Source: a virus
Reading direction: 5' to 3' (one strand)
Virus record (IMG/VR): IMGVR_UViG_3300020164_000003
Coordinates: 1 to 43,869 of that record
Length of the DNA stretch: 43,869 bases
Of the stretch, positions 370 to 42,864 are shown piece after piece (position 1 is the stretch's first letter; each line of letters begins with the position of its first letter). The notes below the pieces were generated by a model. It ran no database searches. It saw nothing but the letters and a program-made list of their open reading frames with translations, and had not been told where the DNA came from. A program made the translations under genes and the position numbers.

Positions 370-445
370 TGGTGGGCCCCCTCGGACTTGAACCGAGAAC
401 CAACAGATTATGAGTCTGGTGCTCTAACCATTGAGCTAGAGGCCC
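370..445 (-). tRNA. tRNA with CAT anticodon, probably tRNA-Ile2 (AUA)
   Basis: Full cloverleaf with a 7-bp acceptor (one G-T pair), anticodon loop CTCATAA, T-loop TTCAAGT and encoded CCA. The anticodon is CAT. The body resembles bacterial tRNA-Ile2 (start GGGCC, TAATC then TTGGT after the anticodon loop, GGTTCAAGTCC T-arm) more than elongator or initiator tRNA-Met. If so, C34 must be converted to lysidine by host TilS to read AUA, a codon expected to be common in such AT-rich genes. It is last in the Gly-Gln-RNA-Ile transcript. Confidence 0.85.
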
Positions 446-593
446 TTTAGAAATGTATTGTCTGACCTATTTGGGAGTGAGGTTGCATTCCTCTCCGTAG
501 CGACTAGTCAGTTATCTCAGGATTCGTTCCTCGCCAGTTGAACCCGAATAGTATATGCGTCCATATACGCTACCTTGACAATACATTTCTAAA
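446..593 (-). ncRNA. Structured RNA filling the tRNA-Gln/tRNA-Ile spacer
   Basis: The spacer is closed by a perfect 17-bp inverted repeat (446-462 with 577-593). Inside, a second helix joins 497-502 (GTAGCG) to 568-573 (CGCTAC), a hairpin spans 474-496 (GGAG/CTCC plus AGG/CCT), and a 7-bp hairpin lies at 551-568. One outer arm touches the 5' end of tRNA-Ile and the other lies three bases from the 3' end of tRNA-Gln, so tRNA processing alone would release it. No reading frame explains it. T4 also makes stable non-tRNA RNAs from its tRNA cluster, a possible analogy rather than homology. Function unknown. Confidence 0.65.
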
Positions 594-596
594 AAT

Positions 597-670
597 TGGC
601 TTCGGAAGATGGATTCGAACCACCATTCGCAGAGTCAAAGTCTGCTGTCCTACCATTAGACGATCCCGAA
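597..670 (-). tRNA. tRNA-Gln (TTG)
   Basis: Complete cloverleaf: acceptor TTCGGGA paired with TTCCGAA (one G-T pair), anticodon stem GCAGA/TCTGC with loop CTTTGAC, T-loop TTCGAAT, discriminator G and encoded CCA. The anticodon TTG reads CAA and CAG. It lies between tRNA-Gly and the structured spacer RNA in one transcription unit. Confidence 0.93.
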
Positions 671-707
671 ATAAAATCAATATACCTCTAAAATACTCGT
701 CGTCCCG

Positions 708-794
708 TCACTGTAAGAGTCCTGTTATTCCTCCGAAACAGATGAGGAGAAATAGAAATAGAATGTATTGGAGAAAGTATATAAAGTATTTCAT
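708..794 (-). CDS. Possible 28-aa hydrophobic peptide
   Basis: A short frame between tRNA-Gly and tRNA-Gln would encode a 28-residue peptide that is almost wholly one membrane helix (starts MKYFIYF, ends GITGLLQ). No good ribosome binding site precedes it. The same stretch can fold into an H-type pseudoknot (CTGTT/AACAG with CCTC/GAGG), so it could be RNA instead. Low confidence as a gene. Confidence 0.2.
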   Translation of the reverse strand: MKYFIYFLQYILFLFLLICFGGITGLLQ

Positions 795-805
795 TTTAGT
801 ATTAA

Positions 806-880
806 TGGAGCGGAAGATGGGGGTCGAACCCACGACATCTGACTTGGAAGGACAGCGCTCTGCCTCTGAGCTACTTCCGC
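806..880 (-). tRNA. tRNA-Gly (TCC)
   Basis: Cloverleaf with acceptor GCGGAAG paired with CTTCCGC, anticodon loop CTTCCAA (TCC, reads GGA and GGG), T-loop TTCGACC, discriminator T and encoded CCA. The anticodon stem carries one T-T mismatch (CTGTC/GTCAG), which may weaken it. It is the first tRNA of its cluster, five bases after the predicted start of transcription. Confidence 0.9.
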
Positions 881-891
881 ATTATGTTTAC

Positions 892-920
892 ATTATACTC
901 TTGATTATTTGATTTGTCAA
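892..920 (-). promoter_or_regulatory. Sigma70-like promoter of the Gly-Gln-RNA-Ile cluster
   Basis: A consensus TTGACA (915-920), exactly 17 bases of spacer and a consensus TATAAT (892-897). Transcription would start near 885, just before tRNA-Gly, so the host polymerase can read this cluster early without phage factors. Confidence 0.85.
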
Positions 921-924
921 GCTT

Positions 925-996
925 TTAGATTAACATTAGAAGAAGAATGGTTATAAATCCTGCTGCTACAATATATTTTTCATACTTGGTATTCAT
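925..996 (-). CDS. Possible 23-aa membrane peptide
   Basis: Starts MNTKYEKYIV followed by about 13 hydrophobic residues, so it would be a single-span membrane peptide. It lies 3' of the secreted protein gene at 1067 and overlaps the next candidate by 17 bases. No clear ribosome binding site is seen and homology cannot be judged at this length. Its stop codon is close to the tRNA cluster promoter. Confidence 0.25.
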   Translation of the reverse strand: MNTKYEKYIVAAGFITILLLMLI

Positions 997-1060
997 ATAG
1001 GTAATATGCTGATGAGATGAAAATTAAAAGAGAAAGAATAAAGAATTTAAAGTGTGACAT
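980..1060 (-). CDS. Possible 26-aa hydrophobic peptide
   Basis: Starts MSHFKFFILSLLIF and reads as a charged tip plus one membrane helix. It follows the stop of the secreted protein gene by six bases, which fits co-transcription, but no ribosome binding site is obvious. It could equally be chance in AT-rich DNA. Confidence 0.25.
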   Translation of the reverse strand: MSHFKFFILSLLIFISSAYYLYEYQV

Positions 1061-1066
1061 TTTAGT

Positions 1067-1450
1067 TTATGGGAGTGACTTACAAGGAGTAATGATTACA
1101 GTTACTGGAAGTGATGGAGTAGTAAACTGTTGAGCATTATATGATTTATCATCCATAGTATAGAAGTCCCAAAATGCTAGAACTGGGCGTGTGCCTGGTT
1201 CTGTTAGAGAGATTTCCCAGACTTGATCCTTCTTATATGAAGAACCATATACACTTTTTACAGTATTTGGATCTGCTGGTTTAAATGAGATTCCTGTTAC
1301 AAAATAAGTCCTGATTGTCTTATTCTGTGATGTCGGAGTGAGATTTAATCTATAATAGGTTGTTTGGTTTTGTGATGTTTCAATAAAACACTTTTGTTGT
1401 GCTTGAATGGTGAATGGCAATAAAAAGAGAAGTAGAGTTAAGTATTTCAT
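1067..1450 (-). CDS. Secreted protein of unknown function (127 aa)
   Basis: I do not recognise the family. The N-terminus (MKYLTLLLFLLPFTIQAQQ) is a clear Sec signal peptide with one Lys, a leucine-rich core and an AxA-like site (IQA), so the mature protein of about 108 residues would be periplasmic or exported. The rest is beta-rich with two cysteines (about residues 21 and 123) that could form a disulfide. It starts five bases after the stop of the RNase H-fold gene upstream and likely shares its mRNA. A superinfection-exclusion or envelope-modifying role is possible but not shown. Confidence 0.6.
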   Translation of the reverse strand: MKYLTLLLFLLPFTIQAQQKCFIETSQNQTTYYRLNLTPTSQNKTIRTYFVTGISFKPADPNTVKSVYGSSYKKDQVWEISLTEPGTRPVLAFWDFYTMDDKSYNAQQFTTPSLPVTVIITPCKSLP

Positions 1451-1455
1451 TTTGG

Positions 1456-1977
1456 TTAGTGTTTAATGGGGGTTAATGGGATTGGGTTGTGGGATTGGTG
1501 AGTAAGGGATTGGTGAGTAAGGGATTTGAATCTGTCAGCAACAGTACTTGCTGCCCATGCATTTGGTTTTACAAAAGGAGTTACGTTACACATTCCTCTA
1601 ATGTAACCAATCGCTTCTAAGATTACGCAAGAACTTCCATATCTTTCATCTGGATTAATATCAAGATGGATTTCCACATTTCTATCTTCTAGGATTTCTC
1701 CTAATTTCATATAGAGATTTGCTACATTCATAACTTCATTCATCAAACGCATTCTTGGGCGATTCTTCTTTTGATCAAAATCTCTTTCTCTTGAGATTTC
1801 ACCAAAAACTTTACATCCATGTTTACCATTTATATGAACAATAATTACTGTGTAATATTCAGCATACCAAACTCCTTTCACTCTAAATCTTTCCGAATCA
1901 CCACCAATATAAATTTTTGTATTTGGACCTTGTGCTTCTATGAATTCTTTGACTTCTTGGATGTTTATGGTCTGCAT
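1456..1977 (-). CDS. RNase H-fold protein, YkuK (DUF458)-like
   Basis: A 173-residue protein with the layout of the YkuK/DUF458 ribonuclease H-like family. A first strand contains YIGGDSERF (Asp27 candidate metal ligand), a second acidic strand is HLDINPDERYGSS, and the C-terminal signature is VKPNAWAASTVADR. The family has the RNase H fold but no firmly known substrate; a nucleic-acid role is inference. The last 22 residues are odd: SLTHQ is repeated because the DNA has a 15-bp tandem duplication, so the tail beyond about residue 150 is probably not part of the fold. The gene has an AGGTGG ribosome binding site. Confidence 0.7.
   Translation of the reverse strand: MQTINIQEVKEFIEAQGPNTKIYIGGDSERFRVKGVWYAEYYTVIIVHINGKHGCKVFGEISRERDFDQKKNRPRMRLMNEVMNVANLYMKLGEILEDRNVEIHLDINPDERYGSSCVILEAIGYIRGMCNVTPFVKPNAWAASTVADRFKSLTHQSLTHQSHNPIPLTPIKH
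1491..1520. repeat. 15-bp tandem duplication in the YkuK-like gene
   Basis: Two exact copies of GGGATTGGTGAGTAA (1491-1505 and 1506-1520), followed by a partial third. They encode the SLTHQ repeats in the disordered tail and suggest replication slippage; the frame is kept. Confidence 0.85.
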
Positions 1978-2069
1978 TTTCCACCTTAGAGTTGTTATTC
2001 CCTCAATTATATATAAAAATCCAATTTTATAATGTTTCGGATGTGTTACAAACTCTAGGGGAATTAATA

Positions 2070-2282
2070 TTATTTTATTAGAAATAGAGCAGTTTTTGCT
2101 TTGGTTTTATCTGCTGTTCTATTTCCATTTTTATCATAATAGGTGAATAACTCTAATTTTGGATCATTTAATTTTTCCAAATAATCAATAATTAGTTTTC
2201 TTTTTTGTTCACCACTATCATCGCCAAAAATAGAAAACGCATAATCATCAACAAGAATCATTAATTTTTCAATATCAACCAT
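2070..2282 (-). CDS. Small acidic protein, unknown (70 aa)
   Basis: Not recognised. It starts MVDIEKLMILVDDYAFSIF and is mostly helical by composition, with a C-terminal segment rich in Lys and Thr. It has no membrane segment, cysteine cluster or catalytic motif. A weak AAGGAAAT ribosome binding site precedes the ATG. It lies directly 3' of tRNA-Pro and may be expressed by read-through from that cluster. The spacer 1978-2069 on its left holds only an imperfect inverted repeat (TAGAGTT). Confidence 0.55.
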   Translation of the reverse strand: MVDIEKLMILVDDYAFSIFGDDSGEQKRKLIIDYLEKLNDPKLELFTYYDKNGNRTADKTKAKTALFLIK

Positions 2283-2301
2283 AATTTCCTTTTTTATTAA
2301 A

Positions 2302-2378
2302 TGGTCTCTGAGACACGAATTGAACGTGCAACCTTACCGTCCCAAACGGTATGCTCTACCAAGTTGAGCTACTCAGAG
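2302..2378 (-). tRNA. tRNA-Pro (TGG)
   Basis: Acceptor CTCTGAG paired with CTCAGAG, anticodon stem TACCG/CGGTA, loop TTTGGGA (TGG, able to read all CCN by wobble), T-loop TTCAATT, discriminator A and encoded CCA. Last of the Asn-Ala-Pro group. It starts with C1, as bacterial tRNA-Pro usually does. Confidence 0.93.
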
Positions 2379-2385
2379 ATTAAAC

Positions 2386-2461
2386 TGGTGGAGTATCGGG
2401 GTAACGATCCCCGTTCTTCGGATTGCAAAACCGATGTGTTGCCCTCAATCACTAATACCCC
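2386..2461 (-). tRNA. tRNA-Ala (TGC), divergent arms
   Basis: The acceptor GGGGTAT pairs with ATACTCC and contains the G3-T70 wobble that identifies alanine tRNAs; discriminator A and CCA are encoded. The anticodon loop TTTGCAA gives TGC. Three features are odd: the D-stem has only three pairs, the anticodon stem closes on a T-T mismatch, and the T-loop is ATCGTTA, where the usual T54/A58 pair is swapped to A54/T58. Shifting the loop to read GCA (Cys) breaks the stem, so Ala is the better call. It may be a degenerate but charged tRNA. Confidence 0.75.
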
Positions 2462-2476
2462 ATTAAATTATAAGAA

Positions 2477-2582
2477 AAGACAAAGCTGCTGGAGCAGGGA
2501 TCGAACCTGCGTACGGTATTACCGAATGCGAGTGATTAACAGTCACTTCTCTTGCCACTAGAGTACCCAGCAGCTTTGTCTT
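2477..2582. repeat. 16-bp inverted repeat extending the tRNA-Asn acceptor stem
   Basis: Positions 2477-2492 are the exact reverse complement of 2567-2582. The inner part is acceptor stem; the outer nine pairs lie beyond the mature tRNA ends, so the precursor can fold an acceptor helix about twice normal length. Confidence 0.8.
2486..2572 (-). tRNA. tRNA-Asn (GTT) with long variable arm
   Basis: Acceptor TGCTGGG pairs with TCCAGCA and the discriminator is G, as in bacterial tRNA-Asn. The anticodon arm AGTGA-CTGTTAA-TCACT gives GTT. Two features are abnormal. The variable region is 20 nt with its own CGGT/ACCG hairpin, a class II shape normally limited to Leu, Ser and bacterial Tyr. CCA is not encoded (CTT follows the discriminator), unlike the other eight tRNAs here. 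A 16-bp helix extends past both ends. It may be real with host CCA addition, or it may have evolved into a non-translational RNA. Confidence 0.75.
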
Positions 2583-2597
2583 CTCAACCTACCAACC

Positions 2598-2626
2598 ATT
2601 ATACCAAACTTTCCTAAAAAAGTAAA
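2598..2626 (-). promoter_or_regulatory. Sigma70-like promoter of the Asn-Ala-Pro cluster
   Basis: TTTACT (2621-2626), a 17-base spacer and a consensus TATAAT (2598-2603). The start of transcription would be near 2591, just before the extended helix around tRNA-Asn. Confidence 0.75.
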
Positions 2627-2639
2627 GCGAAAATTAATT

Positions 2640-2673
2640 CCCTTCTTCCTTTATCAACGTAAGGGTATCGTTG
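2640..2673. other. Possible H-type pseudoknot between tRNA clusters
   Basis: CAACG (2655-2659) can pair with CGTTG (2669-2673), while CCCTT (2640-2644) can pair with AAGGG (2661-2665) inside that loop, giving the crossed order of an H-type pseudoknot on either strand. The spacer 2627-2711 has no gene. Short helices like these can arise by chance. Confidence 0.3.
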
Positions 2674-2711
2674 TCTCGCGATCAATCAATAATAATCAAT
2701 CACATTTCATC

Positions 2712-2787
2712 TGGAGCCCCCGATAGGAATTGAACCCACAACCTACGCATTACAAGTGCGTTGCTCTACCAATTGAGCTACAGAGGC
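2712..2787 (-). tRNA. tRNA-Thr (TGT)
   Basis: Acceptor GCCTCTG paired with CGGGGGC (two G-T pairs), anticodon stem ACGCA/TGCGT, loop CTTGTAA (TGT, reads ACA and ACG), T-loop TTCAATT, discriminator T and encoded CCA. Second after tRNA-Asp in a run read through from the methyltransferase gene. Confidence 0.93.
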
Positions 2788-2812
2788 ATTTTATTACTTA
2801 TATCAATTAAAT

Positions 2813-2888
2813 TGGCGAGTCTGATGGGTTTTGATCCCACTACCTCCGCAGTGACAGTGCGGTGCTCTCCCGATTGAGCTACAGACTC
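2813..2888 (-). tRNA. tRNA-Asp (GTC)
   Basis: Acceptor GAGTCTG pairs perfectly with CAGACTC; anticodon stem CCGCA/TGCGG with loop CTGTCAC gives GTC; discriminator G and CCA are encoded. The T-loop is ATCAAAA, with A at position 54 instead of T. Its first base directly follows the last base of the methyltransferase stop codon, so mRNA and tRNA must be separated by RNase P cleavage at the stop codon. Confidence 0.9.
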
Positions 2889-3887
2889 TTATTTCTTATA
2901 TATAACAGTTACATCAGAACTCTTTTTTTCATTACTAAGTTTTTGTAAAGATTGTCGTTTACTACTAATAACAGAAAATTGATTTATTTTATTGAATTGT
3001 AATCTATTGTGAATCTTTTCAACGTCAATATTCATATCGCGTTTTTCCACTTTACCAACATTCCAACAACTAACCCCATTTATATTTAATAACGAACTAC
3101 TTTTTTCTATTATACCAGATAAAAAATGATTTGTCCAGGATTCATATGTTGAATGATTTTCAATTGATTGGGTTGATTCTTTAGTATAAATCTCTAAATC
3201 AAAATATGGAGGAGAAGTTAAAACCAAATCTACATTTTGAATATCATAATTCAACATATTCAACGCATCATCACAAATCAAAGTAACCTTATTTTCAATA
3301 TTGAGAAAACTAACCAATGCACATAGATTATTATATGTTTTAGTATTTGGTTCAAATGCAATATAATTTGCACCAGAAGCAATAGTACCAAGCAATCTTC
3401 CACCCCAACCAGCACAAGGATCTAAAACTGTCTGTGGTTTATATACATCACAAATCATTTTTGCCATTTGTGGGCGATACATAGTATTCTTTGTTAATCC
3501 ACAGCAAAAGTATATTCCACGCTTTAGTTCAGATAAGTATGGAGTTGAATGACTTTTTCTATTCCACCTTAAAATCTTAATTAGATTATCTTTATTCCAA
3601 AGATTGCGAAAACTTTGTCCTCTATTATTCTCAATATCAAAAAAGTTTGGAAAAAAATGTTCACATAATTTCATTCCAAATCTTGATGTTGAATTTATGT
3701 TATTATTTAATGCAGTCCAATTATTCAGACTTCTCCAATCATGCTGTAATTTTTCATCTTGATAATTAACTTCAATGTTTATTTTTGAAATTTCTTCTGC
3801 TAATTGTGGTAGAATCAATTCAAACTTTTCATCAGATAAATTTCTTAATGAATTTTTTACATTTACTATTTTATAAACATCAATCAT
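2889..3887 (-). CDS. DNA amino-methyltransferase (N4-C or N6-A)
   Basis: A 332-residue SAM-dependent DNA methyltransferase. The SAM-binding motif is LDPCAGWGGR (about 155-164) with FEPN closing the next strand, and the catalytic motif is TSPPY (224-228), typical of enzymes that methylate the exocyclic amino group of adenine or cytosine. The N-terminal 130 residues are a likely recognition region (WNRKSHSTPYLSELKRG). It overlaps the upstream nuclease-like gene by four bases (ATGA), the coupling expected of a restriction-modification pair, and also has its own late promoter inside that gene. The methyltransferase assignment is firm; target sequence and N4/N6 choice cannot be read. Confidence 0.88.
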   Translation of the reverse strand: MIDVYKIVNVKNSLRNLSDEKFELILPQLAEEISKINIEVNYQDEKLQHDWRSLNNWTALNNNINSTSRFGMKLCEHFFPNFFDIENNRGQSFRNLWNKDNLIKILRWNRKSHSTPYLSELKRGIYFCCGLTKNTMYRPQMAKMICDVYKPQTVLDPCAGWGGRLLGTIASGANYIAFEPNTKTYNNLCALVSFLNIENKVTLICDDALNMLNYDIQNVDLVLTSPPYFDLEIYTKESTQSIENHSTYESWTNHFLSGIIEKSSSLLNINGVSCWNVGKVEKRDMNIDVEKIHNRLQFNKINQFSVISSKRQSLQKLSNEKKSSDVTVIYKK

Positions 3888-4435
3888 ATTGAAATAATCT
3901 TTGGTTCAATTATATTATTTGTATTTATAGTTGTCCAGAGTTGATCTGACATTGATTTTATAATTTTAGCATTGTAATTTTTAGCATCACATTTCCAACC
4001 AGAATTAAAAGATTCCCAACATTGCTTGTTATAATCCAACAACTGAGAATCAAAAATAAAAAGATAATAATTTTTAATTCCAGAATTCCACTCTTTCTTA
4101 TTTCTTGCTAAACAAAAATATGTATCATCTGTTTTTTCTGATAAAAATTTTAACTTTTCTTCAATCGTTTTATACTTTGTCGTTCTGGAACCATTGAGTG
4201 TTAATGTATTATTCTTTAAATCATATTCGCCAGATTTGCATGAAATTTTACCATAATCACTATTTACAATATCCTTTCCAATTGAATGTGATCGGTTTGG
4301 TTGCCAATCAGAATCTTTTCCAATCTCCAAGAGAGAAAGGTGTAGTAATTCTTCCCAATATTCTCCAAAAACAGGAAGAGAATATAAATTATGGTGTAAC
4401 CTAATTTTACTAGAAATATTTTCAACAAGCATCAT
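3884..4435 (-). CDS. Putative type II restriction endonuclease
   Basis: A 183-residue protein coupled to a DNA methyltransferase by an ATGA overlap. Its centre has WQPNRSHSIGKDI (D55), then GKISCKSGE (K67, E70), then GSRTTKYKT and YFCLAR. This order, with an acidic residue, a short turn and a strand ending in a Lys, resembles the PD-(D/E)XK nuclease core of small type II restriction enzymes, though the usual Glu before xK is Ser here. No other domain or membrane segment is seen. Alternative: an uncharacterised partner of an orphan methyltransferase. The call rests on the motif and the pairing, not on a known homologue. Confidence 0.6.
   Translation of the reverse strand: MMLVENISSKIRLHHNLYSLPVFGEYWEELLHLSLLEIGKDSDWQPNRSHSIGKDIVNSDYGKISCKSGEYDLKNNTLTLNGSRTTKYKTIEEKLKFLSEKTDDTYFCLARNKKEWNSGIKNYYLFIFDSQLLDYNKQCWESFNSGWKCDAKNYNAKIIKSMSDQLWTTINTNNIIEPKIISI
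3922..3929 (-). promoter_or_regulatory. Possible late promoter ahead of the methyltransferase
   Basis: An exact TATAAATA lies inside the 3' end of the nuclease-like gene, about 35 bases before the methyltransferase ATG. It would allow the methylase to be made late without the nuclease. Such octamers also occur by chance in AT-rich genes (for example 7439 and 24393), so this is tentative. Confidence 0.45.
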
Positions 4436-4520
4436 ATTATAATTATAAACTGGAAACTATCAATTTAAGAATAAAAATAAAAGCATATATATTATTTTTA
4501 ACACATGATAGGAGAAAATT

Positions 4521-4784
4521 ATGGATGAATATGTTGGTGTAATTAAACAGTTCGCTAGTCAACGTTGTCTTTCAAATTATATGTTTTGTGAAGGACAAAC
4601 ATTACAAGTTCAGCAATATCAACCACTATTTGCGGTTATTGGATATACATATGGAGGTGATGGTAATACTAGTTTCAAACTACCAGACCTAAGACCAAAT
4701 CCACCATCGGTTTTGAATAATGGTTGGGGCAATGAACCCAAATACATTATTTGTGTAAATGGAATATTTCCTGATTTTGATTAA
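4521..4784 (+). CDS. Small phage tail collar domain protein
   Basis: The only supported plus-strand gene. Its 87 residues match the phage tail collar domain: IKQFA, then MFCEGQTL, LFAVIGYTYGGDG and FKLPDLR. In larger proteins this domain tips short tail fibres (T4 gp12 type) or caps microcystin-dependent-protein-like adhesins; here it stands alone, ending shortly after the motif. A good AGGAG lies seven bases before the ATG. It converges on the next gene and overlaps it by four bases. No plus-strand promoter is obvious in 4436-4520. It could be a host-range cassette acquired on its own, or a residue of a longer fibre gene. Confidence 0.8.
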   Translation: MDEYVGVIKQFASQRCLSNYMFCEGQTLQVQQYQPLFAVIGYTYGGDGNTSFKLPDLRPNPPSVLNNGWGNEPKYIICVNGIFPDFD

Positions 4785-5020
4785 TTAGTGTCTCCAACAA
4801 GGTTTAAACTTAGACTTTCGGGGTCATCAACAATAGTTATTCCATACAACTTAGCAGCAGTTTCTGCTTGTTCTTTTGTATGATAGATATCAAATTGTTT
4901 TGGACCCCATTTAGTCATTTCTAAAATTGCCCAAGGTCTAAAGTTAGTATGCGTTTGATTATGTAAATCAATATAAAACACACTATCCTGTGATTTTAAT
5001 AAACATATCAAATTAATCAC
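4781..5020 (-). CDS. Hypothetical protein (79 aa)
   Basis: Not recognised. It starts at a GTG preceded by AGGAAACAAT; no in-frame ATG is suitably placed. The middle (YHTKEQAETAAKLYGI) looks like a short helix-turn segment common in small phage proteins that sit in a beta-alpha fold, but no motif is decisive. It converges with the tail collar gene, overlapping by four bases, and is followed upstream by tRNA-Lys. Confidence 0.5.
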   Translation of the reverse strand: MINLICLLKSQDSVFYIDLHNQTHTNFRPWAILEMTKWGPKQFDIYHTKEQAETAAKLYGITIVDDPESLSLNLVGDTN

Positions 5021-5036
5021 ATTGTTTCCTAAAAAT

Positions 5037-5111
5037 TGGTGAGATTGCAGGGACTCGAACCCTGAACCTACTAGTTAAAAGCCAGTTGCTCTACCATTGA
5101 GCTACAATCTC
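5037..5111 (-). tRNA. tRNA-Lys (TTT)
   Basis: Acceptor GAGATTG paired with CAATCTC, anticodon stem ACTGG/CTAGT (one G-T pair), loop CTTTTAA (TTT), T-loop TTCGAGT, discriminator A and encoded CCA. It follows the small gene at 5130 and is probably cut from the same transcript made from the promoter at 5440. Confidence 0.92.
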
Positions 5112-33943: not shown

Positions 33944-34652
33944 TTTGTCTCCATGGGAATTCATTAAATTTTTGTTTCACTTGTTCATTTCCAAATTTGA
34001 AAAACTCCGGACTTACAGAACCAACATTCCCCTCTAATCTATAATTTAGAGTATATTCTCCAGTACAATCATATTGTGGAAAATATTGTTCCATTGCCCG
34101 ATAAAATACTCTGTCTTGTCCCCAACCGCCATGAAACGCATGGCAAATCTTAATTGCTACCTCTGTCTTTAGAGCATAACAATTGGTATCAATATGTTTA
34201 TAATTTGCGAACGGATTCCATTTACCCAAAGATTCACAATCATCTTTACAAATATATTTTCCAGATTTATCAACAATATTTCTAAGGCAGTATGCCCAGT
34301 CTATATTCTTCTTTTCAATAAGATCAATCATTGATTTAACATGATTCTTTTCAAACCAACAATCTTGGTCCAGAAAGAAAACATATTTTGAATTTATTAA
34401 ATGTGGGATTGAAGCATAAACTCTATGTCCATAGAATCCATTTGCTCCAACATTTTCTGGAATTGTCATTACGACATAATTTCTTTCGGTATGATCTATA
34501 TCATATAAAATATCAGTGACTTTCTCTTTGTTCTGATATCCATCAATAACAACATATGCCTGAACGTCATAGGACTGATTGAAAACTGATTCCACAGCAG
34601 ATTTTAACGTTTCGGAACCAGTTGTTGGAATAATAACACTAGATTGTCTCAT
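33924..34652 (-). CDS. Family 2 glycosyltransferase
   Basis: A 242-residue GT-A enzyme. SSVIIPTTGSETLKSAVESV is the family 2 start, YVVIDGYQ the second strand, and YVFFLDQDCWFEKNHV holds the DxD (D95, D97) for metal and nucleotide sugar. GGWGQDRVFYRAM may supply the catalytic base (ED-like QD). Overlaps the deaminase gene by four bases. Confidence 0.82.
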   Translation of the reverse strand: MRQSSVIIPTTGSETLKSAVESVFNQSYDVQAYVVIDGYQNKEKVTDILYDIDHTERNYVVMTIPENVGANGFYGHRVYASIPHLINSKYVFFLDQDCWFEKNHVKSMIDLIEKKNIDWAYCLRNIVDKSGKYICKDDCESLGKWNPFANYKHIDTNCYALKTEVAIKICHAFHGGWGQDRVFYRAMEQYFPQYDCTGEYTLNYRLEGNVGSVSPEFFKFGNEQVKQKFNEFPWRQNAKDHI

Positions 34653-35077
34653 AAAACTAAAACTCCATAATTTTCTTTTGCGTCTTCAATATGGTCTAGA
34701 GTATAGATGACTGCTTTAATACCATAATCTTTAATACATTTCATACATCCAATACAAGGCATTGCTAACCCAGAAATAAAATTATTTTTCCTACAAGAAT
34801 CATATTTTACTCTAGCAACATATAAAAAAGAATTTTCAAATTTATCAAATCCAATTCTTTTATCAGCATTGAAAATTGCTGAAGTTTCTGCGTGCCAAAA
34901 TATAGCATCAGCATTCCTTCCATATTTTCTTTGATATGGATGAGTTTTCATTCTATTTACACCATACGAAATAATTCTATTTCTATGAACTAATGCTGAC
35001 GCAATCCAAACTTTTGGGTGAGATCCAGAATGCGCCAGAACTTTCAAATTATTTAAAATTTTAAGATTTACCTTCAT
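34649..35077 (-). CDS. Cytidine/dCMP deaminase-fold protein (142 aa)
   Basis: The zinc deaminase signature is complete: WHAETSA (H62, E64) and MPCIGCMKC (C108, C111). It is smaller than the dCMP deaminase at 42349 and lacks its insert, so it is not simply a duplicate; substrates could be a free base, a nucleotide or a tRNA. It heads the glycan operon, unusual company for a deaminase. The promoter is so close that transcription would start at or next to the ATG, so the mRNA may be leaderless, and no ribosome binding site is seen. Confidence 0.78.
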   Translation of the reverse strand: MKVNLKILNNLKVLAHSGSHPKVWIASALVHRNRIISYGVNRMKTHPYQRKYGRNADAIFWHAETSAIFNADKRIGFDKFENSFLYVARVKYDSCRKNNFISGLAMPCIGCMKCIKDYGIKAVIYTLDHIEDAKENYGVLVL

Positions 35078-35118: not shown

Positions 35119-36513
35119 TTAAACCTTAAATCCTTCAAATGATTTTTTTGGTTGGTTGAATTTTGAATGTAATGATTGTTGAGGAAGTTTTGGTTCCTGT
35201 CCAGAATCAGTTATTTGAGTTTGGGCAGTAGCCTCAACATCATATAATCTCATCTTTGCCCTATCAATACCAACAACAAATCTTTTATTGTGATTCTTAT
35301 CACCATATCTACTTTTAATTTGCTTAATCATGATTTGACCAAGAGAATCCAATTCCTCAGTGGCAATTAAAGCAACAATCCAATCTGCGGTCATGCTGGT
35401 TCCATGAGATTCGGAGACATCTTCCATAGTTGGATCAGAACTTGACCCACCTCCACGATTAAACTGAGATGAACTTAAAATTGGGACTTTATGTTCAACT
35501 GCCAATCCCCTCAGTTCTTCGGCGATTGCCTTAACATATGTATAAGAGTTTACCGTTGAATTTGATTTTAATCTTGAAGAACAGCAAATATTCATATAAT
35601 CAATAACAATAATATCAGGAACAAAATTCTTCTTTAAGTTTAATTCATTTAGAAGAGTTCTAAAATGAACAACTCCAGCAGATGCTGTTGGATATTGTTT
35701 AATTATCAATTTACCAACAGTATTGCTTCTAATCCTGGTAATTTTTTTATCAAACAAATCCTTTGGCATTTTCATCAGATCATCCATAGAAACATTCATA
35801 AGATTAGCATCAACACGTTTGCCGATTTCTTCTTCGGACATTTCCATAGTAATATATAAAACATTCTTTCCAATTTGGAGATAATGTGAAGTAAAATGAC
35901 ATTTTGTCAAAGTTTTACCAACATTAGTTCCAGAAATCAAAAGATTGAGAGTTCCTTTTGGAAGTCCCCCATTAGTTATCTTATTAAAATATTCAAGATC
36001 AAATGGAATCCTTTCTTCTTTTCTATGATAATATTCATATCTTGATTCAAAATCTTCAATGAAATCATGCCCAACACTTTGATCAAAAGATACTGCTAAA
36101 GCATCCGATAATATTTGTGGAATAGACCCCTTATCTAAGGATTTATTTTTACCATCAAGAATTGAAATTGATTCAAGGACTCCATTATAAATTGCCTGAT
36201 CTTGACAAAACTTTTCTGTCTTATCAACTAACCAATCTTGTTTTGCCAATTCATCTTTTGAAGAATGAATTTCTTCTAAAATCTCAACACTTCTTTTATA
36301 ATCATCTTCAGATATATTATTTTCATTTAATTGAATTATTAAAGATTCAAATGTTGGATTTGTATTATATTGATTTACAAACTCTGAAATTTGCTCATAT
36401 ACCAATCTTTCGGTTCTATCAGAAAAATATTCTGCCTTAATAAAAGGCAGAACTTTCCTAGTATAGTCTTCATCATATATTAAATGCTTTAAAATCGCAT
36501 TTTCAATTCTCAT
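35119..36513 (-). CDS. 41: Replicative DNA helicase, T4 gp41-like (DnaB family)
   Basis: A 464-residue hexameric helicase that unwinds the fork and works with primase. A small N-terminal domain (about 1-160) binds primase; the RecA-like motor has Walker A SGTNVGKT (194-201), Walker B DIIVIDYMNI and sensor motif SSQFNRGG. The C-terminal 40 residues (AQTQITDSGQEPKLPQQ) are disordered and may bind gp59 or polymerase. Uninterrupted, although gp41 is a known insertion site of split inteins in environmental phages. Last gene of the replication operon. Confidence 0.93.
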   Translation of the reverse strand: MRIENAILKHLIYDEDYTRKVLPFIKAEYFSDRTERLVYEQISEFVNQYNTNPTFESLIIQLNENNISEDDYKRSVEILEEIHSSKDELAKQDWLVDKTEKFCQDQAIYNGVLESISILDGKNKSLDKGSIPQILSDALAVSFDQSVGHDFIEDFESRYEYYHRKEERIPFDLEYFNKITNGGLPKGTLNLLISGTNVGKTLTKCHFTSHYLQIGKNVLYITMEMSEEEIGKRVDANLMNVSMDDLMKMPKDLFDKKITRIRSNTVGKLIIKQYPTASAGVVHFRTLLNELNLKKNFVPDIIVIDYMNICCSSRLKSNSTVNSYTYVKAIAEELRGLAVEHKVPILSSSQFNRGGGSSSDPTMEDVSESHGTSMTADWIVALIATEELDSLGQIMIKQIKSRYGDKNHNKRFVVGIDRAKMRLYDVEATAQTQITDSGQEPKLPQQSLHSKFNQPKKSFEGFKV

Positions 36514-36525
36514 TTTATCTCCGAA

Positions 36526-36831
36526 TTACTGGATTTGTGATTCTTCTTCCGATACTGATTGATTTTGAATCATTATATTAGATAAAACATGTCCAATATG
36601 ATTCTTAAAATCTTCATTTTCTAAAAGACTATCAAGTCCGTTTGAATCTACAAGGTCAAATTCATACGATAGCATCGCTTCTCCAGATTCTTCATCTTCA
36701 TTAACATTAACTCTACCATAACGATATACAACCCCTTCAAATTCTCCAGTCAAAAGTTCAACATTAACAATTGTACTTTCTTCTGTTGGATCAACAAATT
36801 TAAAATCTACATCTTGTGTTAAATCAATCAT
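36526..36831 (-). CDS. Small acidic protein between uvsX and gp41 (101 aa)
   Basis: Start MIDLTQDVDFKFVDP; the upstream frame extension lies inside uvsX. The first eight bases overlap the uvsX stop, so it is coupled to the intein-C/UvsX-C gene. Acidic throughout, with a beta-rich core (VVYRYGRVNVNEDEE) and a polar Gln/Glu tail. A protein of this type lies at this place in other T4-like marine phages as far as I recall; function unknown, an acidic partner of UvsX or gp41 being plausible. Confidence 0.65.
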   Translation of the reverse strand: MIDLTQDVDFKFVDPTEESTIVNVELLTGEFEGVVYRYGRVNVNEDEESGEAMLSYEFDLVDSNGLDSLLENEDFKNHIGHVLSNIMIQNQSVSEEESQIQ

Positions 36832-37393
36832 TTTCAATGTCCTCGTCTTTTGTGTTAATTTCTGTATTAATTTCCAAATCAATTTCTTCATAAGATATAA
36901 TAGCACCAGAAGAAATAGAATATCTGTTATATATAGCATCTTTAAAATTATTTGAGTTTAAAATTGAATCCCAAAAATCTTTTGTGTTAGTTTCTTTTAA
37001 TCTATATTTCTTTTCTTCAACCTCTCCAGTTGTAATATTAACTCTAGAATACCAACCATTTGATGGTTTAGTTACAAATCCCAACTCTAGGGCAATATCA
37101 ATCAACCCAGAATATTTACTTACCCCATTATCAAATGAAATTGAAATTGGAATCTTGGATTTCTCTCTGACATACCTAGATTTTTCAACATTAATGATGA
37201 AATTATATCCAGAAATTTCAGTACCTTCTTTTTCTTGCTGTCTACCAAGAATGTAGATGTTATCAGCAGCATAATATGAGCCAGTGTTATGAGTAACCAC
37301 CCCATTTTCTAATACATAATGTTCCGCATCTTTAACAGAAATATCATATACTTTTCTTTTACCTATTGCATTTACAGTTTTAATTTGCATCAT
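36824..37393 (-). CDS. uvsX: Split intein C-part fused to UvsX C-terminal part
   Basis: Start MMQIKTVNAIG, with AAGGA just upstream. Residues 1-36 are an IntC: RKVYDISVKDAEHYVLENGVVTHN carries the block F (DISV, HYVLENG) and block G (VVTHN) motifs, ending in the His-Asn needed for cleavage, and the +1 residue is Thr. From residue 37 the chain is UvsX again: TGSYYAADNIYILGRQ, then NVEKSRYVREKSK and GLIDIALELGF. It continues exactly where the upstream half stops at GGG in T4 UvsX (MGGG/TGPMYSAD). The 153-residue C-extein plus 210 from the N-part gives a 363-residue recombinase. Confidence 0.92.
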   Translation of the reverse strand: MMQIKTVNAIGKRKVYDISVKDAEHYVLENGVVTHNTGSYYAADNIYILGRQQEKEGTEISGYNFIINVEKSRYVREKSKIPISISFDNGVSKYSGLIDIALELGFVTKPSNGWYSRVNITTGEVEEKKYRLKETNTKDFWDSILNSNNFKDAIYNRYSISSGAIISYEEIDLEINTEINTKDEDIEND

Positions 37394-38081
37394 TTTTCCT
37401 TTTACAATTATCATTATGCCATCTTTTTAGATTTCCGGCAATTGTTACAACATCGCAATAAACACATTTATGTTTCAATTCTGGGTTTAATTTTTTAGGG
37501 TTGACCCATTCTAATTCACTATAAATCAAACCAATTTCCGATATAGGTGCTCGGATAATTTCCATAGTGTGTATATTTTGCAAATTTGTAAAACCTTTTC
37601 TTCCTATTTTAGCCCTATGTTCTAAAGACTTAGGTTTTTTAGCAACTTTTGATACCCAATTATCAATAACTTCCTGACTTTTTATGTTATTTCTATTAGA
37701 TTCTTTAATTTTTTCAATTGTTTCTTTATTATGAGTTTTCCCAAAAAATGGATTTCCTTCACCCGTCATTTGTATTGATACTGCTTGACTATGAGCTTTC
37801 CTAGCATATTCATAATGTTTACTAGAATATCTGGATTGATTATCCGATGACATATACATCATAAACCAAGCGTGTGCTAATTTAGAAGTTCTATATTGTT
37901 TAAATAATAACCAATGACATATAAAATGTTCTCTGGCAGTTAATTTTACTAAATTATCTTTAATATCTAATCCACCCATACATTTGGGCACTATATGGTG
38001 GTTTTCATAATAATTTAAATCATTAATACTTCTAATATTAGCCCTATTAATTATTTGGTTGTATATTTTAGCGTAGTTCAT
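37380..38081 (-). CDS. HNH homing endonuclease in the uvsX break
   Basis: A 233-residue free-standing endonuclease. HNH core: ENHHIVPKCMGG (H28, H29), NLVKLTAREHFICHWLL (N43, H52, H56). Then a NUMOD3-type DNA-binding segment NPFFGKTHNKETIEKI, and a C-terminal zinc finger CVYC...H...C (C206, C209, H222, C226), like those ending T4-phage HNH enzymes. It lies between the two halves of uvsX and its stop overlaps the IntC-UvsX-C start by 14 bases, so both may be translated together. An inverted repeat with a late promoter precedes it. It probably spreads the whole break by cutting intact uvsX alleles; this is inference. Confidence 0.88.
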   Translation of the reverse strand: MNYAKIYNQIINRANIRSINDLNYYENHHIVPKCMGGLDIKDNLVKLTAREHFICHWLLFKQYRTSKLAHAWFMMYMSSDNQSRYSSKHYEYARKAHSQAVSIQMTGEGNPFFGKTHNKETIEKIKESNRNNIKSQEVIDNWVSKVAKKPKSLEHRAKIGRKGFTNLQNIHTMEIIRAPISEIGLIYSELEWVNPKKLNPELKHKCVYCDVVTIAGNLKRWHNDNCKRKNDAN

Positions 38082-38090
38082 AGTAATCCT

Positions 38091-38140
38091 CTGTAGTATA
38101 ATAGGTATTTATAAAACAGAGAGTTTCTATTATACTACAG
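38091..38140 (-). promoter_or_regulatory. Perfect 14-bp inverted repeat before the HNH gene
   Basis: Positions 38127-38140 and 38091-38104 are exact complements with a 22-base loop. The IntN stop codon lies in the first arm, and the base of the second arm touches the AGAGG ribosome binding site (38087-38092) of the HNH gene. In long transcripts from the replication promoter this hairpin should hinder HNH translation. The loop carries a late promoter whose transcripts would lack the first arm. Confidence 0.8.
38106..38113 (-). promoter_or_regulatory. T4-type late promoter inside the hairpin
   Basis: An exact TATAAATA 25-32 bases before the HNH ATG, in non-coding DNA. A transcript started from here begins inside the second arm of the inverted repeat, freeing the ribosome binding site. 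Confidence 0.75.
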
Positions 38141-39038
38141 ATACATCATCACCAACAAATAAATTTTTAGCCTCAACCCATTCATTATTAATTAAAAATT
38201 TATGTTTATCTGAACAGATTACCTTATATCCATCTTCAAATTCAACTTCAAAACATTCAGGTTCACCGTCATCTAAGGTTTCTGGATTCCATGTATAAGT
38301 GACTTCTTTATCCCCATCTAAAGTTTTAACTAAATCTCCAACCAAAAACTCTTCAACATTCTTAAATGAACCATCTGCCAATTTGATTTTAGTCCCTTCA
38401 ACTAAACACCCTCCGCCAACAATATCTTTAGCATATAATTCCATAGTCTTGTATGTGTGATTTACAACAACCATAGGAATATCTTTAATTGATAGATGCG
38501 GAGTCACCATTCTAAAAAGACTCTTGATTTGTTTTGCTCTACTCATATCAGCAACAGATTTTCCATCAAGAGCATCTTCAACTTCTTTCTTTGATGCCAA
38601 ATTACCAATAGAGTCAATAAGAATGATAATCTTATCTCCCCGTTCAATGTTAGTAATTTGCTGCATTATATCAAATTTCAATTGTTCAATATCCATAATT
38701 GGAACATGAAGAACCTTTTCCAAATCAATTCCAAAAGAATTAAAATATGATTGTGGGGAACCAAATTCAGAATCATAAAACATTAAAACCGCATCAGGAT
38801 ACTTATCCATATAAGCCTTCGCCATAAGCAAAGAAAATCCTGTTTTAAACATTTTACTAACACCTGCCCACATAGTCAATCCGGAAGCAAATCCTCCATC
38901 AATCTTTCCGGAAAGAGCAACATTCAATACTGGAATTGATGTTGAGATCATATCTCTATCAGTAAAGAACTTTGATTTTGAAAGAATAGAAGCTTCTTTG
39001 ATAGTAGAATTCTTTTTAATCTTATCCATTAAACTCAT
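38130..39038 (-). CDS. uvsX: UvsX N-terminal part fused to split intein N-part
   Basis: Residues 1-210 are the N-terminal part of the T4 RecA-like recombinase: Walker A AGVSKMFKTG (58-67), Walker B IIILIDSIGNL and VVVNHTYKTMELYAKDIVGGG at the DNA-binding loop. At residue 211 an intein begins: CLVEGTKIKLADGSF is block A with the catalytic Cys, VICSDKHKFLI is block B with the conserved His. The IntN ends at residue 302 (GDDVSVV) with a stop codon, without endonuclease domain. Not a frameshift or assembly break: a new gene follows, and the IntC half is found about 0.7 kb downstream. Confidence 0.93.
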   Translation of the reverse strand: MSLMDKIKKNSTIKEASILSKSKFFTDRDMISTSIPVLNVALSGKIDGGFASGLTMWAGVSKMFKTGFSLLMAKAYMDKYPDAVLMFYDSEFGSPQSYFNSFGIDLEKVLHVPIMDIEQLKFDIMQQITNIERGDKIIILIDSIGNLASKKEVEDALDGKSVADMSRAKQIKSLFRMVTPHLSIKDIPMVVVNHTYKTMELYAKDIVGGGCLVEGTKIKLADGSFKNVEEFLVGDLVKTLDGDKEVTYTWNPETLDDGEPECFEVEFEDGYKVICSDKHKFLINNEWVEAKNLFVGDDVSVV

Positions 39039-39056: not shown

Positions 39057-41642
39057 CTAAAAGAAATCTTCAAATGAAAACCTCTTTTCAGTTTGCCAAT
39101 CAATCGTTTCTGTTATTGCGGTCAATGGTTCTAAAAATACTTTATTAAACATTAAATCATAATCAATAAATTCAACCAAATCAAATTCTTTTGGAAGTTT
39201 TTCTGGAAAAGAAATGACATTTTCTTTAAGAAAATTTGGAACTTTCAAATAACAAAACTTAATCTTATCTCCATCTTTAATAAATTCATATTCAGAATCT
39301 AAGTTTTTTTCAACAAGTAACTTATTAAAAAGAATGCTGCCACGAACATGAATTGGAGTTCCTTTTTTATATAGCATAACAGAGTCCGAATACTTATATA
39401 ATCCTCGCATCCCTCTTGGGAATGATATTTCTTCAACACTTAATGATTTAAACTTTACTTTAAAGTCTCCAATGTAATCTTGGAGTTTTTGTTCGGTATC
39501 ATTAAGAATAATCTTAACACAATCTTTCAATGCGCCCCGAACAATTGCTGGAGTAGAAGACTTTACGATTTCCAATCCAGTAACTTTAATTTTTGGTTCC
39601 GCATAAATTACACCTTCATTTGAATATACATTAAGAGCATATCTTTTCTTAGCAACGAATACAGAATTTGAACATATCTTTTCTAGTTTGTATGACAGAT
39701 CATTCTTATATGAATTTACATAATCACTTAGATTTTGACAAAAATTATCAACTTCCGGTTGAACTTTTTGGGTAATCATCTTGATAATAAAATTCAGAAT
39801 CTGCTCGTTATTATACTCCTTTGGGCAGATTTTATCAACTAATTTCTCAAAAGAAATAGCAAGGCTATCCGTATCCATATAAATGACATAATCGGATTTT
39901 GTTTTTAATACAGAATTCAAATACTTATTCATGCCAGTTTCAACCCAACGATTGGATAGTTGTCCCTCCAATGTAATTGCTTCTGCTAATTTAACATCAA
40001 AAAATCTAAAATATTTATTACCAGTTGCCCCATAAAGAGAGTTCAAACATAATTTCTTTGAATTTTGAAGATTATTAAATTTTGAAATATCATATTGTAA
40101 CTCACTCAATCTTCTTTTCAATTCTGGAGAATTATTCTTCTTCAATTCTGCCGATACTACTTCATACTCTTTTTGAGCAGACAACATCTTCTTTTTATAA
40201 TCTTGTCTAGCCTTAAACATTGTTTCAACCATTTCTGGAAGAAATCCTTTTTTATCAGTCCTAAAGAATTGTCCATTTGGAGTCAATGTTACATTATTAT
40301 CTTTCAACTTTGAAAGATCCACAGATTTTGATAATAATTTATCTACAGAAACTCCACTAGAAAGAATCCTTCTCATGTCATCAGTATAATCTTCTGGACT
40401 AACCAAAGTCTCAATACTAATGTTCTTTGTCATAATGATTGAAGGATATAGAGAAGTCGCATCAAGAGTAGCAACCCACCTGTGCATTCCAGTAATAGGA
40501 TGTTTTACATAAGCACCAGCATATTCAACATCCTCACGATCTTCTTTTTGTGGAATTTGAATATTCTTTTGTCTCAAATAATCATAAATTAAAGAATCCC
40601 ACATTCTTGTCTGCTTAAACACATCTTCATAATTTGTTTTTGAATCGTATGCCAAGGTTAAACAAAGTTCAAACAACTTACACTTTTCATTCAACTTTTC
40701 AACCAGATAAACGTCTTTTACGTTATATTCATAAAATTTTTGCTTATCTTCAGTATAAAATTTATGGAGAGAACCATCATAATCAACTTTATTTTCGCCA
40801 AGTTCTTCTTCGGCAATGAAGTCTAGTTTGTAAGATTCTTGGGATGTACCTCCTGGTTGATATCTTTTATAGAGATCAAGATAATCAAGAGAAGATATAC
40901 CAAGAACTGAATAAGAAACTTCTTCCTCATACTGATTAAATTTAGGATTAAATTTCTTTGTTCTTCTATCATGGATAATATTCCACGGAGACAATTTCCT
41001 AGTTTCTTTCTCACCAATAATTCTATAGCAACGATTGATAAGATATGGAATATCAAACCCAGAAGAATTCCATCCAGACATAATATCTGGATATTCCAAA
41101 GACCAAATTTCAATAAACTTCTTTAAAAGAGTCCATTCATCTTGACATTTGATATAATAAACATTATCGGGACAATCAAAATCATGATATCCAAAAAGAT
41201 AATATTTTTCTTCACCAACAAACTTTAGCGCAATAGATGTTATTGGTTGGAATGTATCTTGAGCAGAAGCAAATCCTCCGGTTTCTGGATCTGAATTTAC
41301 TTCAATATCAAAAATAGCAATTCTTATTTTATTATAATCCCATTCAATATCTGTTTGGAACATATCAGAAATCAAGCAATATTCATATTGAGTATTACCA
41401 TAAACATGAAAGTTTCCAACACTTTCAAATTGAGAGACAAATTCTTTTGCCTTTTTGATGGATTCAAACTTGATTTTTTTTAGAGGATCTCCATACAGAG
41501 TTTTGTATGGAGATTCTTCATTTGTTGGAACAAATAATGAAGGTTTGAATGGAACTTTTTGTCTAATTTTCTTTCCATTTTTAATACCAGTATAGAGAAT
41601 ATTATCCCCATATTGCTTGGTATTTAAATAAAAATCACTCAT
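39057..41642 (-). CDS. 43: Family B DNA polymerase, T4 gp43-like
   Basis: The replicative polymerase with proofreading. Exonuclease motifs: AIFDIEVNSD (D112, E114), SGWNSSGFDIPYLINR and EYNVKDVYLVEKL. Polymerase motifs: A, DATSLYPSIIMT (near 394), B, KLCLNSLYGATGN, and C, YMDTDSLA (near 588). The C-terminal tail (RFSFEDFF) resembles the clamp-binding peptide of gp43. At 861 residues it is close to the T4 enzyme (898) and is intact, with no intein. It lies 18 bases upstream of uvsX-N in the replication operon. Confidence 0.96.
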   Translation of the reverse strand: MSDFYLNTKQYGDNILYTGIKNGKKIRQKVPFKPSLFVPTNEESPYKTLYGDPLKKIKFESIKKAKEFVSQFESVGNFHVYGNTQYEYCLISDMFQTDIEWDYNKIRIAIFDIEVNSDPETGGFASAQDTFQPITSIALKFVGEEKYYLFGYHDFDCPDNVYYIKCQDEWTLLKKFIEIWSLEYPDIMSGWNSSGFDIPYLINRCYRIIGEKETRKLSPWNIIHDRRTKKFNPKFNQYEEEVSYSVLGISSLDYLDLYKRYQPGGTSQESYKLDFIAEEELGENKVDYDGSLHKFYTEDKQKFYEYNVKDVYLVEKLNEKCKLFELCLTLAYDSKTNYEDVFKQTRMWDSLIYDYLRQKNIQIPQKEDREDVEYAGAYVKHPITGMHRWVATLDATSLYPSIIMTKNISIETLVSPEDYTDDMRRILSSGVSVDKLLSKSVDLSKLKDNNVTLTPNGQFFRTDKKGFLPEMVETMFKARQDYKKKMLSAQKEYEVVSAELKKNNSPELKRRLSELQYDISKFNNLQNSKKLCLNSLYGATGNKYFRFFDVKLAEAITLEGQLSNRWVETGMNKYLNSVLKTKSDYVIYMDTDSLAISFEKLVDKICPKEYNNEQILNFIIKMITQKVQPEVDNFCQNLSDYVNSYKNDLSYKLEKICSNSVFVAKKRYALNVYSNEGVIYAEPKIKVTGLEIVKSSTPAIVRGALKDCVKIILNDTEQKLQDYIGDFKVKFKSLSVEEISFPRGMRGLYKYSDSVMLYKKGTPIHVRGSILFNKLLVEKNLDSEYEFIKDGDKIKFCYLKVPNFLKENVISFPEKLPKEFDLVEFIDYDLMFNKVFLEPLTAITETIDWQTEKRFSFEDFF

Positions 41643-42348: not shown

Positions 42349-42864
42349 TTATCCTAATTTTATTACATTAATTTTACATTTCTTTAAAAATTCAATACCA
42401 TCAGAACTCCTATATTCTTTCTTATAATAGAATTCTTTTATCTTTGCCCCATATATCAATTTAGCACAATTCATACAACAACTATGAGTACAAAATAAAC
42501 TAGCACCCTCGGAAGACTCATGAGAAGAAGATATCTTCATCAACATTGCTTCTTCCGCATGAGTGACACAAGATTTTGTTTTTAGATAATATCGCTCCCA
42601 CTCATCGGCGATTTTGTTGGAGTTTTGTTTATATGGATACTTTTCATATAGTTGATAAAATTCTAAATTAGAAGAATCCTCTTCCGTTACAAAAATTTTA
42701 TTTTCACAAACATTATCCCATCCACGAGGAGTGCCATTCCAAGAAAAACTGATTATATTATCATTCTTAACCAGAACCGCGCCAACTTTCAATTTTTGAG
42801 CATATGATAATTGTGCAGTTCTTTCAGCAACATCCATATAATAATCAATCATTCTTTGTTTCAT
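42349..42864 (-). CDS. cd: dCMP deaminase
   Basis: Turns dCMP into dUMP, the substrate of ThyX. The zinc site is THAEE (H102, E104) and CCMNCAK (C130, C133); SFSWNGTPRGWDN (about 39-51) matches the nucleotide-binding loop of phage dCMP deaminases. The region between (EFYQLYEKYPYKQ) is an insert. At 171 residues it is a little shorter than T4 Cd (193). A stem-loop lies directly before the start codon. Second gene of the replication operon. Confidence 0.9.
   Translation of the reverse strand: MKQRMIDYYMDVAERTAQLSYAQKLKVGAVLVKNDNIISFSWNGTPRGWDNVCENKIFVTEEDSSNLEFYQLYEKYPYKQNSNKIADEWERYYLKTKSCVTHAEEAMLMKISSSHESSEGASLFCTHSCCMNCAKLIYGAKIKEFYYKKEYRSSDGIEFLKKCKINVIKLG

Follow-up and report, generated by a model that had tools for sequence, protein, structure and literature searches.

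How can a T4-like phage produce its UvsX recombinase when the gene is broken in two and a gene for another protein occupies the gap? This question is raised by the metagenome-derived IMG/VR virus record IMGVR_UViG_3300020164_000003, whose 43,869 bp we analyzed at full length (the window). In the window, uvsX is encoded by two open reading frames (ORFs), each of which carries one part of an intein, and an HNH endonuclease gene lies between them. With a probability of about 0.88, we read this locus as a fractured uvsX in which a naturally split class-1 intein at GGG|TG is trans-spliced and mobile, its two halves being separated by a free-standing gene for an HNH homing endonuclease.

The two uvsX halves and their split intein

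The first ORF (39038-38130; the minus strand carries all the features of this locus) encodes 302 residues. Residues 1-210 (38409..39038) are the N-terminal part of UvsX up to the GGG of the conserved DNA-binding loop region and match the UvsX family phrog_97. They are followed by the N-terminal part of the intein (IntN; 38130..38408), which has 92 residues and a stop, with Cys1 at residue 211 and the block-B motif S-x-x-H (CSDKH). The second ORF spans 36824-37414 and probably starts at M8 (37393), a second in-frame start (MMQIK...) with AAAAGGA ahead of it. Its product begins with the C-terminal part of the intein (IntC; 37286..37393), 36 residues that include the block-F Asp/His and the terminal His-Asn, with the Asn codon ending at 37286. 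The C-terminal part of UvsX (36824..37285) follows with 153 residues and a stop, and its first residue is the +1 Thr. This part matches T4_UVSX_C (PF21134, E 1e-21). The alignment with T4 UvsX (3io5) stops exactly at the junction in the first ORF (E 2e-67) and starts there in the second (E 5e-40). Intein-free relatives are continuous across GGG|TG and represent the exact empty site. The predicted spliced UvsX has 210 + 153 = 363 residues. An initial annotation of this DNA had described the two ORFs with their 92- and 36-residue intein parts, the GGG/TG junction, the HNH gene between the halves, and a product of ~363 residues, and all of these hold.

IntN matches intein_Nterm (TIGR01445) and IntC matches intein_Cterm (TIGR01443) in NCBIfam, both above the cut-off. 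The nearest solved intein in a PDB profile search is gp41-1 (6qaz, E 1.4e-7), one of the inteins with which the initial annotation had proposed a comparison. A match to the designed repeat protein Tako8 in the PDB profile search was rejected as a weak-repeat artefact. Cys1, the block-B His (H69), the block-F Asp (D16), and the terminal His-Asn (H34, N35) are each present in 35/35 distinct inteins compared. At +1, most have Thr and a few have Ser, and no other residue occurs. All features of a class-1 intein are therefore found, namely a nucleophile at position 1, the block-B His, the block-F Asp/His, His-Asn, and Cys/Ser/Thr at +1. In diverged environmental pairs, the ratio of nonsynonymous to synonymous substitutions (dN/dS) is 0.06-0.17 for IntN and 0.03-0.16 for IntC. 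Judged by these ratios, both intein halves are under purifying selection.

The two gene products would associate via IntN and IntC. Attack by Cys1, transfer to Thr+1, and Asn cyclisation would then release a normal 363-residue UvsX. From this complete and invariant chemistry, we infer trans-splicing of the two halves into UvsX. The window holds no second uvsX, and the single copy is the split one. The 143-kb contig behind L026 and four complete isolates likewise have the split gene as their only uvsX. A second complete uvsX, which the initial annotation had named as a reason to give up the idea, is thus absent from the window and from five complete or near-complete genomes with the intein. The same annotation called the recombinase essential, which is too strong. 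UvsX is important, but T6 lacking uvsX can be passaged and propagates in the laboratory (PMC13096335).

The HNH endonuclease and the predicted control of its expression

The gap is filled by a gene for a 233-residue HNH protein (37380..38081), whose 3' end and stop overlap the IntC start. The protein matches NUMOD3 (Pfam) and the homing endonuclease family phrog_655 (E 5e-56). Residues H28/H29/N43/H52 and the C-terminal C206/C209/H222/C226 are invariant in 12 homologues. The protein has the features of an HNH homing endonuclease (phrog_655, Mob-like), namely HNH residues, NUMOD3, and a zinc-finger-like C-terminal DNA-binding module. The structure model of the protein has a predicted local distance difference test score (pLDDT) of 69. 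As its dN/dS of 0.13-0.23 in diverged environmental pairs indicates, the HNH gene is under purifying selection. The enzyme would cut intein-free uvsX and promote its conversion; the hints of this are indirect, from the recent transfer of its cassette and the shared target module described below. An Rfam search of the gap gave no match, and hence no known catalytic intron is present there. The locus thus has an enzyme gene in two ORFs at one intein site, IntN and IntC with all splicing motifs, and a separate endonuclease ORF, which makes it the kind of fractured gene that the initial annotation had supposed.

An RNA hairpin with a 15-bp stem (38090..38141; 38141-38127 paired with 38104-38090) is formed by the last IntN codons and the 48 nt that separate the IntN stop from the HNH start. 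Its 5' arm overlaps the IntN coding end, and the stem includes part of the HNH ribosome-binding site (RBS) AGAGG (38092-38088). The hairpin has a predicted energy of -19.9 kcal/mol (z -4.20), and 0/200 shuffles are as good. The hairpin loop contains the T4 late promoter core, TATAAATA (38113-38106). A transcript from TATAAATA, starting ~6 nt on, would be without the 5' arm and unstructured. The same layout is seen 5' of most endonucleases at this site. In 14 of 19 representative loci, TATAAATA is located just 5' of the endonuclease, and 3 more have a one-base variant. A clear hairpin is found 5' of the endonuclease in 13/19, with quite different stem sequences. The hairpin consensus is found in the five close relatives of the window, and distant loci have other stems at the same place. 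Within the window, TATAAATA occurs 10 times (331-43794), always on the coding (minus) strand, and this number is near the chance expectation. Several of these copies are 25-80 nt 5' of ORF starts, as expected for T4 late promoters.

An RBS-sequestering hairpin whose 5' arm is left out of transcripts from a late promoter has been described for I-TevI/II/III, SegB, and Aeh1 MobE (PMC2988022), and the locus has this arrangement at the sequence level. Following the I-TevI scheme, the HNH gene would be largely silent on the read-through message, with the hairpin over its RBS, and its translation would come late, from a transcript of its own T4-type late promoter. As in I-TevI, SegB, and MobE(Aeh1), the hairpin would form on the early message and the late transcript would be unable to form it. 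The hairpin here overlaps the intein coding end, whereas theirs are intronic or intergenic.

Spread, loss, and probable re-fusion of the intein unit

The initial annotation named no earlier case of this arrangement in uvsX. The arrangement is indeed present, but it is not unique to the window. A uvsX split at the same residue is found in 25 GenBank/RefSeq records, representing at least 19 distinct T4-like phages, and in about 40 IMG/VR contigs. The phages are Yersinia TG1; Proteus PM2 and Pm5461; Salmonella SEA1, CF-SP2, and SNUABM_01; Klebsiella Lion_ER11; Enterobacter UFV01 and EnC07; Escherichia RPN226, BYEP01, SYGD1, ELT1, and HY03; Shigella SP21535; Shewanella Thanatos-1; Pseudomonas PspYZU05; and Vibrio VmeM-32 and EniLVp02. 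In these records, the genes are labeled as RecA-like recombination proteins, hypothetical proteins, or endonucleases. Among the records examined, the 'HintC' note in VmeM-32 comes closest to recognition. Judged by where their profiles start and end, PHROGs 8337 and 18112 were apparently assembled from halves of this kind. When 14 kb of the window was compared with phages at the DNA level, no match was obtained.

Intein-free uvsX is found in at least 120 contigs, and the closest of them among the matches listed has ~80% DNA identity to the window. At least 17 switches between intein presence and absence fall on the extein tree, 7 of them forced by strong branches. In L034, L043, and L044, the exteins differ at synonymous sites by a proportion (pS) of 0.58-0.84, whereas IntN, HNH, and IntC are 97-100% identical (pS 0-0.11). 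Since the intein and HNH are near-identical and the exteins are synonymously saturated, the cassette moves as one piece and has done so recently. The converse is seen between L025 and L027, whose exteins are close (pS 0.24-0.35) and whose inteins are distant (~0.7). Between the window and L024, pS is 0.65-0.68 for the exteins, 0.33 for IntN, and 0.43 for HNH. Among cultured phages, the intein-carrying HY03 and the intein-free G2540 are 98.1% identical over uvsX-N. These sequence comparisons demonstrate movement between phage species. In a mixed infection, intein-free uvsX would be cleaved by the endonuclease and would then receive a copy of the complete IntN-HNH-IntC unit through recombination. 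Homing in T4 depends on UvsX or RecA (PMC2988022). Because T4 homing uses UvsX, the element would occupy a gene needed for its own spread, as a mobile split intein within the recombinase that phage homing itself uses.

The nuclease in the gap is variable. GIY-YIG endonucleases fill the same gap in enterobacterial, Vibrio, and Shewanella phages. When the C-terminal 89 residues of HNH were compared with 50,697 phage records, 4 matched over >80% of the query. Three of the 4 are uvsX-gap GIY-YIG endonucleases, from PspYZU05 (two records) and EniLVp02, and the fourth is an Aeromonas phage protein. The alignment of HNH and GIY-YIG proteins reveals a common module, GRKG...NP...CxxC...RWHxDxCK. Since this C-terminal module is shared, it seems that one target-binding module has been combined at this site with different nuclease domains. 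Such modules are common in phage endonucleases.

The endonuclease can also be lost. In one lineage of contigs, which we take from the IMG sample numbers to come from a lake, full HNH is present in L034/L035/L043/L044. L037-L039 keep a 49-bp remnant with the HNH 3' end, and L036 keeps 33 bp. In L040-L042 there is no HNH remnant, and a single 140-residue intein is read through in frame. The fused L042 and the HNH-carrying L044 are 99.9% identical over 963 bp before the site and 98.5% over 2.2 kb after it. The fused L041 and the remnant-carrying L037 are 99.9% and 99.4% identical before and after the site, respectively. As assemblies from a small number of sampling sites, these contigs do not represent independent events. 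Other endonuclease-less split alleles (L026, L027, L049-L056) include some with HNH remnants. The endonuclease would thus decay or be deleted after homing, leaving the split intein alone, and in one lineage the halves would have been rejoined in frame.

A contiguous intein might instead be ancestral in the lake lineage, with the HNH cassette inserted into it later. Such an insertion would be clean, and more distant UvsX proteins do have contiguous inteins, as in Salicola phage SCTP-2 (L020). We regard this order of events as unlikely. The contiguous rows are nested inside the split clade (branches 96/93 and 100/95). Furthermore, the fused junction GTAGAATAC|GAGGAAATTATG retains the downstream RBS and start codon of the split form, which are read as Glu-Glu-Ile-Met, and the same lineage holds remnants of HNH deletion (49 and 33 bp). 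Mending of the split form by deletion is the better reading of these sequences. In the usual account, invasion by an endonuclease breaks an intein for good. Our results favor the reverse to some degree, and we consider it somewhat probable that the fractured form of the intein is a mobile state that can be reversed. Such a unit would home whole, swap its nuclease domain (HNH/GIY-YIG) while keeping a related target-binding module, delete its endonuclease, and re-fuse to a cis-intein.

Three other explanations concern the locus as a whole. T4-like phages have enzymes that were broken by homing endonucleases and work as two peptides (PMC10448857). UvsX could likewise be a two-piece, non-covalent protein like Aeh1 NrdA, with its halves unspliced and the intein parts as remnants. 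This is very improbable, since 35 diverse inteins conserve the +1 nucleophile and all catalytic residues, and strong purifying selection acts on both halves. In addition, the same intein sequence also occurs as a cis-intein re-fused in frame, whose UvsX would be wrecked unless spliced. An assembly or binning artefact joining two loci could be suspected in any metagenome-derived virus record, but here its chance is close to nil. The arrangement is found at 99-100% identity in IMG/VR contigs from three other metagenomes (L021, L022, and L023; L022 ends inside it) and in cultured phages, which refutes an artefact for the arrangement and disposes of the misassembly that the initial annotation had wanted excluded. 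It is also improbable that the split intein splices next to an HNH gene that is an unrelated passenger, the intein not being mobile by homing. Many T4 intergenic regions do hold free-standing Mob/Seg-type genes (PMC2988022), and split alleles persist without an endonuclease. However, the intein and HNH travel together at 97-100% identity across synonymously saturated backbones. The HNH C-terminal module is shared with the GIY-YIG enzymes of the same gap, and the HNH gene is itself under purifying selection.

Several points weigh against a trans-spliced and mobile split intein. Both splicing and DNA cutting are predictions from sequence. A predicted structure of the re-fused UvsX-intein precursor has a pLDDT of 57 and is silent on the intein fold because of this low confidence; its top Foldseek match is T4 UvsX (E 5e-17), which is uninformative on the intein. 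As for the control of HNH, the RBS in the window is paired only in part, several loci have only a weak hairpin, and double-sided covariation in the hairpin was absent among the five closest relatives of the window. Finally, at some loci the split intein persists without the endonuclease, and splitting alone is therefore no proof of current mobility at a given locus.

Relation to known systems and neighboring genes

Fractured genes with split inteins and free-standing endonucleases were reportedly described by Dassa et al. in 2009 (Nucleic Acids Research), in gp41, NrdA, NrdJ, and IMPDH. That work is said to cover eight enzyme types, which may include UvsX/RecA, and to report a Vsr-like endonuclease family at half of the loci. 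Those loci reportedly resemble the present one in having a DNA-metabolism gene, a split intein, an endonuclease between the halves, a phage context, and gene-control elements that accompany the endonuclease. They differ in the host gene, which is uvsX here, and in the endonuclease, which is HNH-NUMOD3 here (GIY-YIG in relatives) and not Vsr-like. The split uvsX is a fractured gene in this sense and of a known kind, unrecognised in many cultured phages. No paper in the literature searched joins a split intein with uvsX, and the papers examined describe no uvsX intein. The new details are the invariant chemistry and selection, the hairpin and late promoter, the recent cassette movement, GIY-YIG in the gap, and the three-allele lake series.

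The gp41-1 split intein shares the class-1 chemistry and has a similar split position and half lengths. It differs in its low sequence identity, its extein, and its +1 Ser, which is Thr here. T4 SegA, a GIY-YIG homing endonuclease that adjoins uvsX and cuts in it, also targets uvsX (PMC2988022); in contrast, SegA is intergenic and has no intein association. The PolB split inteins of the T4-like phages Aes and CP21 are likewise in a replication/recombination gene, but the gene and intein are different and the PolB inteins are cysteine-less (PMC12707363). L021, a near twin of the window, has a second split intein at the DNA polymerase site YMDTDS|SLAISF, with no endonuclease gene (L021:2976-3539). 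This intein is absent from polB of the window (39057..41642).

The split uvsX occurs in ordinary cultured T4-like phages, and trans-splicing, homing, and endonuclease timing are thus testable in laboratory coliphages (HY03 versus the intein-free G2540). The allelic series (endonuclease-carrying, endonuclease-deleted, and re-fused) bears on the origin and reversibility of split inteins. For protein engineering, the family provides some 35 distinct but related split inteins in a +1 Thr context.

Other inteins are found in further sequences. The gp41 helicase of L027 (near 7364) and L059 (near 7660) ends in a gp41-1-type IntN; therefore, a fractured gp41 and a split-intein uvsX are found next to each other. 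In L044 and L059, the P-loop of gp41 also carries an intein. In the distant UvsX families L063 (5001-6352) and L061 (5001-6364), inteins are likewise split, with an HNH gene between the halves, and the insertion point in L063 is a few residues upstream, before SGGGG. The contiguous intein of SCTP-2 (L020, 2501-2902) has 134 residues and lies at the corresponding GG|SG site of a UvsX/RecA-like protein, and the same gene has signs of a further intein upstream. In L062:5001-7037, an intein that is ~37% identical to the query IntN interrupts the Cys motif of an apparent radical-SAM protein.

The window has the T4 gene order 43 - uvsX - 40-like - 41 on the minus strand. The neighbors include the 861-residue, intein-free DNA polymerase gp43 encoded by the polB gene above and a DnaB-like helicase, gp41 (35119..36513). 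Two different dCMP-deaminase-like genes (34649-35077 and 42349-42864) bracket the replication block, and a cluster of eight tRNA genes occupies 373-5111 on the minus strand.

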